DNA of 64,000 nucleotides from contig NZ_VWPI01000048.1 of assembly GCF_015155755.1 (NCBI RefSeq), positions 1-64,000 on the forward strand. The letters are read 5' to 3'. Shown in pieces: positions 1,250 through 54,884 of the stretch. Source of the stretch: Komagataeibacter sp. FXV3. GTDB taxonomy: Bacteria > Pseudomonadota > Alphaproteobacteria > Acetobacterales > Acetobacteraceae. A program made the translations under genes and the position numbers. The notes below the pieces were generated by a model. It worked only from the letters and a program-made list of their open reading frames with translations, was not told the origin of the DNA and did not search any database. Positions within the stretch are counted from its first letter, which is position 1; each line of letters starts with the position of its first letter.

Positions 1250-1326
1250 AAGTTTTTGGAGAAGCTTGTTTTAAAAAGCTTCAGAAAATACTGCCTTTTT
1301 GGGGGAAGGGGACACCCAAAATGTTT
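1250..1326. repeat. Composite palindromic repeat, copy 1
   Basis: This copy lies between the 3' ends of two convergent genes. It holds an AAGTTTTTGG outer arm, the hairpin GAAGCTT/AAGCTTC at 1261-1282, and a degenerate second palindrome (CTGCCTTTTTGGGGG). Both strands end in A/T runs, so it could act as a bidirectional terminator. It is one of eight related copies in the window. Confidence 0.6.
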
Positions 1327-1360
1327 ATTATTTTATAAACTATTTATTTTAAAATAATTT

Positions 1361-1867
1361 CTACAGCCGCTTGTGCATTTCATCACGGATGGCATTGCAC
1401 TTCTTGGTAAACACGCCCGCCTGTGACGCCGTCATGAAGTTGATGAGGAACGCACCCAGCAGCGAGCAGAAGGACAGGATGATCAACACCCGCCCCATCA
1501 GCGATATGATCCCGCCGTAATGCTCGGCTGAATACCACAGCAGCCCGAGACTGAGCACCGCGCCGAAGACCCCCAGCACGCCGGTGGAGCGGATAAGGGA
1601 TTCCTCCTCACGGATGAAGGTGGAGGATTCCTGCCATAACAGGAACAGCTTGCGATCCATTTCCTGAACTGCGGCGGCGTAGTCCTCCGTGTCATCCGGG
1701 TGCTGGTGGTCAGTGCCGCTGCGGTGCAGTTCCAGTTCCTGCCGGGCCTTGGCAAAGACACGCCTGCGTTCCTTGATGGCGGGCAAGCTGATATCGACAA
1801 AGCTGAGGATGGCGACATTCAGACCCGCCGACAGCTGGATCACCGCCTGGAAATCACCCCAGATCAC
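1361..1867 (-). CDS. Small membrane protein of unknown function
   Basis: I do not recognise a family. The protein has an N-terminal amphipathic stretch, a charged middle rich in Glu, Arg and Gln (KERRRVFAKARQELE) that may be helical or coiled, and two clear C-terminal membrane segments near the end (FGAVLSLGLLWYSAE and LIILSFCSLLGAFLINF). The frame is open up to 2038, but the upstream part overlaps the divergent neighbour and looks poorly protein-like (Cys, His, Pro). I prefer the GTG at 1867, which has GGGGA six bases upstream and gives 168 residues. An ATG at 1951 is the main alternative. The neighbour on the other strand is also a small membrane protein. Confidence 0.55.
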   Translation of the reverse strand: MIWGDFQAVIQLSAGLNVAILSFVDISLPAIKERRRVFAKARQELELHRSGTDHQHPDDTEDYAAAVQEMDRKLFLLWQESSTFIREEESLIRSTGVLGVFGAVLSLGLLWYSAEHYGGIISLMGRVLIILSFCSLLGAFLINFMTASQAGVFTKKCNAIRDEMHKRL

Positions 1868-2015
1868 AGGTTGTCCCCATTGGGGCACACATGACTGCGC
1901 ACTGTAAAAACCCTGACAAGTTGGATACGACCCGGCATGTTCATGCTGCATGCCTGCGGCCGGCGCGCGATACGATATGGCGGCACGCCTGCGTTTAGGG
2001 TTAGCATGAAGTGCG

Positions 2016-2342
2016 ATGAATATCCATGTTCCCTCCACCTATGAGGTCTACCGTGGCTGGCAGTCCATACAGGGGACCGGGCTGCAGATCGGCACGGCTG
2101 TCCTCCTCGCCCTTGCGCTGGGGATGGCTCTCGGCATGGTGGTGTTCCTGCTGCCGACCTTCATAGCGTGTCGGCGCAAGGTCCATAATGCGGCAGTGGT
2201 GGCGGTGGTGAACTGCGCCACCGGCATGACCGGGGTCGGATGGGTGATTGCACTGCTCATGGCCTGCGTGATGGAAACCGACACCCAGCGCCATGCCCGG
2301 CTGCGTCGTAGCGAACCGGCAACCTTCCTGAGCGTGCCCTGA
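2016..2342 (+). CDS. Superinfection immunity family membrane protein
   Basis: This 108-residue protein matches the Imm-type superinfection immunity family (named after phage T4 Imm, which blocks entry of incoming phage DNA). It has two membrane segments: residues about 28-50, ending in the hallmark FLLPTFIA, and about 66-86, holding GVGWVIALLMA. Between them lies a short basic linker (CRRKVHN) followed by AVVNCATGMTG, close to the family pattern of an Asn-rich second helix with G-W. Chromosomal relatives are common and their role is mostly unproven, so a phage defence function is inference. No other phage genes are nearby. No good ribosome site is visible, so the start could be a later Met or Val. 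Confidence 0.7.
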   Translation: MNIHVPSTYEVYRGWQSIQGTGLQIGTAVLLALALGMALGMVVFLLPTFIACRRKVHNAAVVAVVNCATGMTGVGWVIALLMACVMETDTQRHARLRRSEPATFLSVP

Positions 2343-2365
2343 CACCTTGGCGTCCTGTTAAAAAT

Positions 2366-2415
2366 TAAAGTTTTCGGGTGCCGCCTTTTTGAAAAAACTT
2401 CACCAGAACCTTCTT
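2366..2415. repeat. Composite palindromic repeat, copy 2 (degenerate)
   Basis: The segment AAAGTTTTCGGGTGCCGCC followed by TTTTTGAAAAAACTTCACCA carries the arms of the same family, but the GGCGGC return arm is missing, so the main hairpin is broken. It lies between convergent 3' ends (superinfection-type gene and serA). Confidence 0.5.
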
Positions 2416-2536
2416 TCAGTTTGCACGATGCCTCAAAGGCAGGCTTCCCCAAAACCCGGACAGCAGGGCATAGAAAAGGGGACACGCCCAACCGGCATGC
2501 CCCCCGTTTTGTCGACCCGATGTAATCAGGCGCGCA

Positions 2537-52473: not shown

Positions 52474-52492
52474 GTGCCTGCCAGACGGGCGA

Positions 52493-52822
52493 TCAGTACA
52501 GGTGGTCGTGCTCCCCATAGGGAACGACGATTTCATCCTGCCGGGCCAGATTCTGCATGGAGCGCGCGCGTTCATCCAGCAGGTCGGTATCCAGCGCCCC
52601 TTCCTTCAGCCCGCGCACGCGGCGCAGCCAGACTTCCTGTTCCGCCGCGGCATCTTTCTGGGCGGATCGTGCTTCGTCCAGCAGGTGAAGCTGTGCGGCA
52701 TAGCTGTGCAGCCCATGTTCACCCCGCATGACATTCCAGCCGAAATAGGCTGTAAGCCCGATGAACAGGGCAGGGGGGATGGTCGCCCCCAGCACGCGCT
52801 TCATGATCTTGCCCAGCTGCAT
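52493..52822 (-). CDS. ftsB: FtsB/DivIC-like septum formation initiator
   Basis: A 109-residue single-pass membrane protein. A hydrophobic segment (about 10-27) is followed by a periplasmic helix likely to form a coiled coil (LHSYAAQLHLLDEARSAQKD) and the DLLDERARSMQNLARQDEIVV end typical of FtsB. FtsB works with FtsL and FtsQ in the divisome. It follows eno by 61 bases on the same strand, the usual eno-ftsB order. The ATG at 52822 has AAGGG upstream; 52804 is an alternative. Confidence 0.87.
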   Translation of the reverse strand: MQLGKIMKRVLGATIPPALFIGLTAYFGWNVMRGEHGLHSYAAQLHLLDEARSAQKDAAAEQEVWLRRVRGLKEGALDTDLLDERARSMQNLARQDEIVVPYGEHDHLY

Positions 52823-52883
52823 CGTAACCCTTTCCCCGCCATATCCTGTTGCCGGACGGGATTACCCCGTCCGGCATGGGATG

Positions 52884-54164
52884 TCACCCGTTCTTCAGGA
52901 TCGTGCGCCCGGCATAACGGGCGGCCGTGGCCAGTTCGTTCTCGATACGGATCAGCTGGTTGTATTTCGCCGTCCGGTCCGAACGCGAAAGCGACCCGGT
53001 CTTGATCTGCCCGCAATTGGTCGCCACCGCCAGATCGGCGATGGTGCTGTCTTCCGTCTCACCCGAACGGTGGCTCATCACCGCCGTGTAACCGGCATGC
53101 TGCGCCATCTGCACGGCTTCCAGCGTCTCGCTCAGCGTACCGATCTGGTTGACCTTGACCAGCAGGGAATTGGCGACGCCGGCCTTGATGCCACGACGCA
53201 GGCGGTCGGGATTGGTCACAAACAGGTCATCACCCACCAGTTGCAGCTTGTGGCCAAGATTGGCAGTCAGTTCGGCCCAGCCTTCCCAGTCGTCTTCCGC
53301 CAGCCCATCCTCGATGGAGATGATGGGGTAGCGGGCGGAAAGATCGGCCAGGTAGGCGATCATGCCAGCGGCATCGAGGCTCTTGTCCTCGCCCTTCAGT
53401 TCATAACGCCCGTTCTTGTAAAACTCGGTCGCGGCGCAATCCAGTGCAAAGGTCACGTCGTCACCGGGGCGGTATCCTGCCGCCTCGACCGCGCGCATCA
53501 TGAAGCCCAGTGCCTCATCGGCCGATTTCAGCGCGGGCGCGAACCCACCTTCATCACCGACATTGGTGTTGTAACCGGCACCTGACAGGCTTTTCTTCAA
53601 CTGGGCAAAGATTTCCGACCCCATGCGGATCGCATCCGTCACCGTGGGCGCGCCCACGGGCTGGATCATGAATTCCTGAATGTCGATGGGATTGTCGGCA
53701 TGTTCGCCACCATTGATGATGTTCATCATCGGCACGGGCAGGGTGCGGGCATACACGCCCCCGACATAGCGGTACAGCGGGGTCTGCAGTTCCTCGGCCG
53801 AAGCCTTGGCCACCGCCAGCGACACGCCCAGAATCGCGTTTGCCCCCAAGCGGGACTTGTTGGGTGTGCCATCGAGGTCGATCATCGCCTCGTCAATGGC
53901 AACCTGGTCGGTCGATTCCACGCCCTGCAGGGCTTCAAGGATTTCATGCTCGACATGACCCGCAGCCTTGAGCACACCCTTGCCGCCATAGCGTTTCGGG
54001 TCACCATCACGCAGTTCAACAGCTTCATGCGCACCGGTGGACGCGCCTGAAGGAACCGCAGCCCGACCTTTTGCGCCGGATGCCAGTTCGACATCCACCT
54101 CGATGGTGGGATTGCCACGACTGTCGAGTATTTCGCGGGCGATGATATCGATAATGGCGCTCAT
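52884..54164 (-). CDS. eno: Enolase
   Basis: Enolase converts 2-phosphoglycerate to phosphoenolpyruvate. The 426 residues have [35 protein letters not shown], the Mg2+ ligands in [14 protein letters not shown] and [10 protein letters not shown], and the catalytic Lys in [13 protein letters not shown] with [15 protein letters not shown]. The ATG at 54164 has GAGGA upstream. The ftsB-like gene follows, so they probably form an operon. Confidence 0.97.
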
Positions 54165-54301
54165 GGTATCTGTTTCCTCAGATTTGACATTATGGGGATA
54201 CGGCATACGACCGCATGCATATCCTGCCCACACGATAACAGATGCCGCGCATCATGCCAGAGTAGGCTATGCACAACATAACAAGATAGGAGAGACCCGC
54301 C

Positions 54302-54784
54302 GTGAAACGCCTGCCACTGCTTGCCATCGTCACTGCGCTGGCAAGCCTGCTGCCACTGGTTGGCTGCACATGCGCGATCCTGTTCCTGACCCCCGACCAT
54401 ACGCCGCGCCTGCTGACGGCTGCTGTCGGGTACGGGGCGGTGATGCTGTCCTTCCTTGGCGCGGTCCACTGGGGGCTGGCGCTGGAACAGCCCGACATCA
54501 TCCCTGCGGGCGGCACGCAGCGCCTGACCAACCTGCGTCTTGCCATGGGGGGTGCCCCTGCCTTCATCGGCTGGGTGGGGCTGTGTGCGGCAACGGTTCA
54601 TGAACTGATCGGGCTGCTGATCCTGATCGTGGGATTTGCCGCCACCGCCGTGGTGGAACGCATGGCGTGGCAACGCGGGGCCATGCCGCGCGGTTACATG
54701 ACATTGCAGTGGTTTGTCATATGCCTGGCGGAACTGTGCTTTCTGGCCATGCTCGCGGCCTGCATGGGCATGCGGCCGCATTGA
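54302..54784 (+). CDS. DUF3429 family membrane protein
   Basis: A 160-residue protein with about five membrane segments and the DUF3429 hallmark SFLGAVHWGLAL near residue 55. The start is a GTG with GGAGAG nine bases upstream. The function is unknown. It is divergent from eno and is followed by a palindromic repeat in a convergent gap. Confidence 0.85.
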   Translation: MKRLPLLAIVTALASLLPLVGCTCAILFLTPDHTPRLLTAAVGYGAVMLSFLGAVHWGLALEQPDIIPAGGTQRLTNLRLAMGGAPAFIGWVGLCAATVHELIGLLILIVGFAATAVVERMAWQRGAMPRGYMTLQWFVICLAELCFLAMLAACMGMRPH

Positions 54785-54805
54785 TATGCCGGCAGATCAT
54801 AACGA

Positions 54806-54884
54806 CGTTTCTGGTGACGATTTTTTTAGAAAGCCTTGAAAGAACGCCGCCTTTTTTGAAAAAAGGCGGCGCCCGAAAACTTCT
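54806..54884. repeat. Composite palindromic repeat, copy 8 (best hairpin)
   Basis: The hairpin arms CGCCGCCTTTTTT (54845-54857) and AAAAAAGGCGGCG (54859-54871) are perfect 13-base complements around a single G. The outer arms (ACGTTTCTGG on the left, CCCGAAAACTTC on the right) and a degenerate first hairpin are also present. It lies in a convergent gap with a separate terminator further on. Confidence 0.75.

Follow-up and report, generated by a model that had tools for sequence, protein, structure and literature searches.

A mobile palindromic element of Komagataeibacter, lying mainly between convergent genes, as a plausible two-way transcription stop

The window analysed here, the first 64,000 nucleotides of contig NZ_VWPI01000048.1 of Komagataeibacter sp. 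FXV3, carries eight copies of a palindromic repeat, most of them in the gaps between convergent genes. Among the neighbouring genes is mfd, whose product is 95–98% identical to the Mfd proteins of 11 named Komagataeibacter genomes. An original prediction, made from the bases of the window, had placed related sequence at eight positions, and all eight were found when the window was searched with a full-filter covariance model (CM) and with nhmmer: seven by the CM, and the copy at 50036 by nhmmer alone, the CM having missed this fragment (50027–50074) at E ≤ 1. Five are full copies of about 98 nt and three are fragments; the last entry is the single convergent gap of 80 nt or more that holds no copy.

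1242–1339, plus strand: full core copy, CM 70 bits, in the convergent gap 1248–1360 between a MATE transporter gene and a minus-strand gene
2354–2420, minus strand: fragment, CM 31.3 bits, in a convergent gap; the outer arms and part of hairpin 2 remain and hairpin 1 is mostly gone
8522–8608, plus strand: fragment, chiefly hairpin 2 (GCCACC...GGCGGC), CM 23.4 bits, nhmmer 8553–8583, in the convergent gap between the SmpB and cold-shock protein genes
16669–16766, plus strand: full core copy, CM 90.2 bits, in the convergent gap between mfd and a gene for a 310-aa protein
20289–20386, minus strand: full core copy, CM 107.5 bits, in the convergent gap between a decarboxylase-like and a CobT-like gene
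28744–28841, minus strand: full core copy, CM 94.5 bits, in the tandem gap between the PgmG (phosphoglucomutase) gene and a DUF3553 gene
50027–50074, minus strand: fragment with hairpin 1 and one outer arm, nhmmer 20.4 bits, in the convergent gap 50013–50097
54797–54896, plus strand: full core copy, CM 76.7 bits, in the convergent gap between a DUF3429 gene and an oxidoreductase gene
44910–45106, no strand assigned: the only convergent gap of this size (≥80 nt) that lacks a copy; it contains an unrelated long GC-rich hairpin

Gene calls agree with the arrangement predicted at the outset, in which seven of the eight copies lie in convergent gaps and seven of the eight convergent gaps that reach 80 nt are filled, the exceptions being the copy at 28756, between same-strand genes, and the empty gap 44910–45106 with its own hairpin. 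No terminal repeat within 3 mismatches is recorded for any of the eight window copies, and at Rfam gathering scores the window yields one tRNA only, with the repeat unmatched. Beside the fragment in the SmpB/cold-shock gap, at 8612–8671, lies a tandem repeat, GCAGGCTATGCC, in four overlapping copies at 12-nt spacing.

A full core consists of the outer arms AAGTTTTTGG and CCAAAAACTT enclosing two hairpins, GAAGCTTTTTTCAAAAAGCTTC and GCCGCCTTTTTGAAAAAAGGCGGC, an arrangement that can potentially fold into three nested hairpins. Conservation extends past the arms, into a T-rich tail, TTATTnTTTTTTA, after the hairpin-2 side and an A-rich stretch before the hairpin-1 side. The ~98-nt unit is itself the core of an element that measures about 162 nt and ends in 15-bp terminal inverted repeats (TIRs): longer copies carry GAGACTGTTTGAAAA at both ends, the most complete of them measuring 160–163 nt, and copies with both ends also occur in other lengths, from 114 to 174 nt. 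The 174-nt copy (L020:13330–13503), which spans both TIRs, resembles a fusion of two half elements.

In kind, the repeat belongs to a non-autonomous transposon, a miniature inverted-repeat transposable element (MITE), of which it is the structured core; the element is short and non-coding, with TIRs at both ends of its most complete copies, a target duplication, and both a filled and an empty site. At 37 own-genome TIR sites within one mismatch, inspected in fetched loci, a TNA trinucleotide adjoins 21 of the 37 edges, against a background of 5.9% within gaps at those loci. Ten copies have both TIRs when counted by hand with TIR mates allowed 2 mismatches; four of these show an exact 3-bp duplicate (in one case ATA, which is not TNA) and six do not. 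Identical 3-bp flanks are TAA at L009, L210 and L266 and TTA at L264, with TTA also at L155. At two of the 37 edges (L261:3999 and L148:152) the flanking TAA or TTA serves as the stop codon of the adjacent gene. The comparison of filled and empty states comes from one site only, the decarboxylase/CobT gap, where K. melomenusus has TAA-element-TAA, an insertion of ~164 nt whose left TAA is the stop codon of the decarboxylase gene and whose ends have drifted from the consensus, and K. xylinus NBRC 15237 has an empty TAA; K. xylinus CGMCC 21569 is also filled. An element in the same orientation occupies this gap in 6 of 11 named Komagataeibacter (one of them partial) and in two species of the Novacetimonas group, and orthologous convergent gaps of named relatives vary in the presence, position and orientation of the element. 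The mobility that had been proposed for the repeat is thus borne out by the TIRs, the TNA at their edges, the filled and empty site and a patchy spread.

A TNA target duplication together with this form of TIR is what we take to be an IS5-family, IS1031-like signature, and judging from these sequence features the element probably owes its movement to an IS5-family transposase with a TNA target duplication. The nearest insertion sequence (IS) seen in the same genome is a complete 897-bp IS (L121, G000:C165, 1111–2007) with a DDE_Tnp_1 domain, a match to the NCBIfam IS5 model and a TAA duplication; its TIRs, GAGGCCGTTTGAGAA/TTCTCAAACGGACTC, match 12 of the 15 TIR bases of the element, making it a candidate relative of the helper. 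No autonomous partner with the exact TIR is present among the own-genome TIR sites or the sites fetched from relatives. An origin of the kind known for repetitive extragenic palindromes (REPs) and their RAYT transposases was considered and rejected, since the genome has no match to Y1_Tnp (PF01797). A different IS of ~829 bp, with ends GGGTCTGTTGGGAATT, lies within or directly against element sequence at five places, namely L131 (G000:C50, ~18103–19050), L132 (C4), L141/L269 (C63), L147 (C171) and L148 (C64), with a sixth copy, L128, outside this count. This IS may prefer the palindromes of the element, much as some ISs target REPs.

Across the 3.61-Mb genome, a 30-mer of the repeat, allowed up to 3 mismatches, has 145 sites and its reversed pattern none, so the repeat is not a product of chance. 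The CM search that the original prediction had called for, in this genome and across the family, gave at least 150 matches here. For the choice of gap, genes were called with a home-made hexamer model in two samples: sample A, comprising the window and 20 stretches of 20 kb picked from contigs with matches, and sample B, comprising 20 further stretches, together 864 kb with 81 elements. Sample A holds 57 elements, 37 of them convergent (21 on the plus and 16 on the minus strand, in line with the variable orientation that had been noted), and fills 37 of its 43 convergent gaps of at least 80 nt, but this 86% overstates the occupancy because the contigs were chosen from the match list and insertion itself lengthens a gap. 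Sample B holds 24 elements, 12 of them convergent, and fills 11 of 25 such gaps. The comparison of gap types that had likewise been called for is uneven: over both samples the element occupies 48/107 convergent, 30/510 tandem and 1/109 divergent gaps of all lengths, or 48/68, 30/216 and 1/101 of those with at least 80 nt, and none of the 81 elements lies inside a called gene. If copies were placed at random over the residual intergenic length (the gap less 100 nt for each element), then 11.7 would be expected in convergent and 25.5 in divergent gaps, against 49 and 1 found. In 400 kb of Acetobacter garciniae, which belongs to another genus, the occupied gaps are 14/53 convergent, 7/232 tandem and 0/53 divergent. 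That the repeat marks convergent gaps therefore holds in both own-genome samples and in A. garciniae.

CM matches occur in 18 of 40 named genomes: all 11 Komagataeibacter, all four of the Novacetimonas group (including G. entanii), one of eight Acetobacter (A. garciniae) and two of four Gluconobacter, with none in five Gluconacetobacter or in the eight other named genomes. A. garciniae and most Komagataeibacter have at least 103 matches each; the two Gluconobacter have 6 each, at perhaps fewer places, a single place being able to match on both strands. The best scores in A. garciniae equal those in Komagataeibacter (111 bits), which suggests a horizontal arrival there. Among 200 sampled genomes of the family, the own genome included, 30 have matches, and in at least 10 other genera the sequence is related but different: outer arms like AAGTTTTTTGG/CCAAAAAACTT are kept (unseen at 2 of 30 distant loci examined) and the inner stems differ, with examples such as GTGGGGGC/GCCCCCAC, GTTC/GAAC and CTCCC/GGGAG, a run of T5–8 and one of A5–8 topping each inner hairpin that our script could parse. 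The most matches to the distant form in the 14 distant genomes searched, 132, are in G145 (genus g80, 3.4 Mb), at fewer places because both strands were counted. Two distant genomes in which gene calls and models are rough give a weaker picture, and we draw no gap-type claim from them: G055 has copies in 3/35 convergent, 1/93 tandem and 1/36 divergent gaps with 7 of 14 elements inside called genes, and G119 in 6/29, 18/132 and 1/26 with 10 of 50 inside called genes.

The pairing of the stems was compared with shuffles at both distances. Compensatory stem changes had been read at the outset as a sign of selection on the paired structure. The variants quoted for that reading exist in single copies, but across 42 own-genome copies the share of paired cells is 88.6%, equal to the shuffled value, and covariation within the genome was discarded as evidence of structure because overall it is not above shuffles. 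Hairpin 2 (GCCGCC), taken alone, is slightly above them (6 double Watson-Crick changes against 2.8, p ~0.04; pairing p ~0.02–0.03) and hairpin 1 alone is not. Between genera the same claim stands. In a model-aligned distant set of 72 rows from 35 loci, chosen as strong matches and counting both strands of most places, both sides change in 30 of 32 pairs, 396 cells are double changes against 95 after shuffling, none of 500 shuffles reaches as high, and sliding the partner strand destroys the signal. That pairing is maintained between genera, both inner stems having been swapped with compensation, is strongly supported by these sequence comparisons.

Most copies have lost their ends. Of the 81 cores in the 864 kb, 60 are without a TIR within 3 mismatches, and searches with the end arms alone at E ≤ 1 returned coreless matches in only 1 of 13 cases for the left arm and 3 of 26 for the right. 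The convergent share is 40 of 60 among cores without a TIR, 9 of 21 among those with at least one and 2 of 7 among those with both. A genome-wide census of copies with a TIR within one mismatch places 13 of 30 in convergent, 15 in tandem and 2 in divergent gaps, 2 more at contig ends being unclassed; set against this census the end-less share of 40/60 differs from the 13/30 with a TIR (p = 0.042) and from the 3/10 with both TIRs (p = 0.038), contrasts that are nominal, rest on data overlapping with the samples and use unequal TIR cut-offs. That core-only copies are more convergent than end-bearing ones is a weak sign of retention following insertion, as opposed to targeting alone.

If the core is retained for a function, its fold may suggest one. 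A simple home-made terminator rule, which asks for a U tail behind a closed hairpin or three-way stem with a folding energy of −8 kcal/mol or lower, accepts 24 of 50 well-preserved copies when they are read on the element strand and 25 of 50 on the opposite strand, compared with 5/50 and 3/50 of mononucleotide shuffles. In 47 convergent copies drawn from the own genome and from A. garciniae, the two 14-nt tails contain on average 7.8 and 6.3 T, where ~3.3 would be expected from intergenic T content. We envisage that the MITE inserts and that its ends are later lost through mutation and deletion; the core, with its arms, two inner hairpins and T-rich tails on both sides, is kept above all between convergent genes, as the distribution of copies shows. 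The core would most likely be retained because either strand, once transcribed, would give a closed hairpin or three-way stem with a U-rich tail behind it, such that one piece of DNA could end transcription from both sides. A two-way stop is plausible from the modelled fold, the tails and the retention of the core, and retention of a MITE core as a bidirectional terminator is the reading towards which we lean, with considerable reserve.

Several observations weigh against this reading. A 76-nt core is easier to detect than arms of 38–44 nt, and the contrast between end-less and end-bearing copies is weaker inside samples A and B alone (p = 0.07 for at least one TIR, p = 0.09 for both) than against the census. 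On either strand taken singly, about half of the well-preserved copies do not pass the terminator rule. Orientation in tandem gaps is even, at 15:15 in the own genome and A. garciniae, and a direction-specific U tail, sought in these gaps, came out negative, the tail on the transcribed side being no richer in T (p 0.81 and 0.53). If the element were doing the work of ordinary terminators, then convergent gaps without it might carry them instead; single gaps appeared so by eye, but the idea is unsupported, as canonical terminators occur in 7 of 28 element-free convergent gaps of at least 40 nt and in 10 of 28 shuffled ones, and outside the element in 13 of 48 filled gaps. Among the 42 own-genome copies double changes are not above shuffles and pairing of the outer stem is below them. 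Finally, 5 of the 11 named Komagataeibacter do without the element in the decarboxylase/CobT gap.

These points give weight to a serious rival, in which the element is a tolerated parasite, a functionless MITE that survives where it is harmless, behind stop codons and away from promoters, so that promoterless convergent gaps accumulate copies. Divergent gaps are nearly empty (1/109), several species lack the element in the same gap and the tails give no directional signal, all of which speaks for such a parasite, and the pneumococcal BOX, RUP and IS, which are also enriched between convergent genes, are read in this way in the available part of that report (PMC3049150). On its own, however, this explanation accounts neither for cores that outlast their ends, nor for the higher convergent share of end-less copies, nor for the pairing maintained between genera, and we regard it as quite possible and still the less probable of the two. 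A stabiliser of 3' ends or an RNase processing site in place of a terminator would suit the many copies that lie close behind stop codons, and one account, in its accessible part, ascribes effects on RNA, or RNA processing, to the YPAL and NEMIS repeats (PMC2229807), but such a role would give no reason to prefer convergent gaps over tandem ones, and we consider it improbable.

The nested palindromes might instead act as DNA. A role in supercoiling has been proposed for bacterial interspersed mosaic elements (BIMEs), and AT-rich nested palindromes could absorb or respond to supercoiling between convergent genes, as a cruciform or as a site for gyrase or a nucleoid protein. The T-tract and A-tract atop the inner hairpins are conserved across genera and pairs in the distant set are nearly all Watson-Crick (2038, with 38 G-U and 77 other), as such a role would have it; RNA folding from both strands would also predict rare G-U, however, and the loci counted were picked as top CM matches, and the chance we give this role is equally small. 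The terminator reading can also be widened beyond Komagataeibacter. In that form a three-helix bidirectional terminator would be shared across the family, its helices built as stem-T(5–8)...A(5–8)-stem, such that the U tract of one hairpin would serve as the tail of the preceding hairpin on either strand, with inner stems replaced by compensation between genera. In Komagataeibacter it would have been spread by the MITE into TNA targets that include stop codons, landing there being harmless, on this proposal, because TNA includes TAA and TGA, and as the ends erode the core would become the host's terminator of convergent gaps. As a whole we think this wider scheme unlikely, if less so than the stabiliser or supercoiling roles.

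If the core does terminate transcription, then much of the punctuation at convergent gene ends in one bacterial genus comes from a transposon, as it does once more in Acetobacter garciniae, with related architecture recurring in other genera of the Acetobacteraceae. Copies with intact ends and core-only copies in one genome would then let the change of a selfish element into a terminator be watched. Komagataeibacter is used for the production of bacterial cellulose, and short two-way terminators would be useful parts for it.

We found no earlier description of this repeat in the open-licence literature, the scope of our search; several known systems resemble it. In TIR form and TNA duplication it is like the IS5-family TNA-target elements, presumably the IS1031 group, and their MITEs. 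With REPs and BIMEs it shares a palindromic, intergenic nature and a place chiefly in unidirectional and convergent gaps, but REPs are 20–40 bp and mostly tagged with GTAG or CGTC, and, as far as the available part of that paper goes, CGTC repeats are reported absent from the Acetobacteraceae (PMC3733652); the RAYT domain missing here is a further difference. Paired DNA uptake sequences of Neisseria and Haemophilus are likewise reused as terminator hairpins and enriched in tail-to-tail gaps, in the sections available (PMC1852404), yet these are words of ~9–11 nt and the Komagataeibacter repeat is the core of a transposon. The Yersinia palindromic sequence (YPAL, or RU-2) is palindromic and mobile, of ~168 bp and with filled and empty sites, but in the part of its description consulted here it is without a terminal TIR, has internal inverted repeats and duplications of 3–26 bp and is not A+T-rich (PMC2229807), whereas the Komagataeibacter element has a 15-bp TIR and 3-bp duplications. 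SPRITE of Streptococcus pneumoniae, like RUP and BOX, is a small repeat thought to be non-autonomous and mobile; it looks like a Rho-independent terminator, is overrepresented in convergent gaps and has been suggested to be co-opted as a terminator, so far as the accessible sections state (PMC3049150). It belongs to another organism and is likened here by description and not by sequence, the Komagataeibacter element having three helices, a 15-bp TIR and a TNA duplication, but among the published systems examined, as their available parts portray them, SPRITE appears to be the closest parallel in behaviour.

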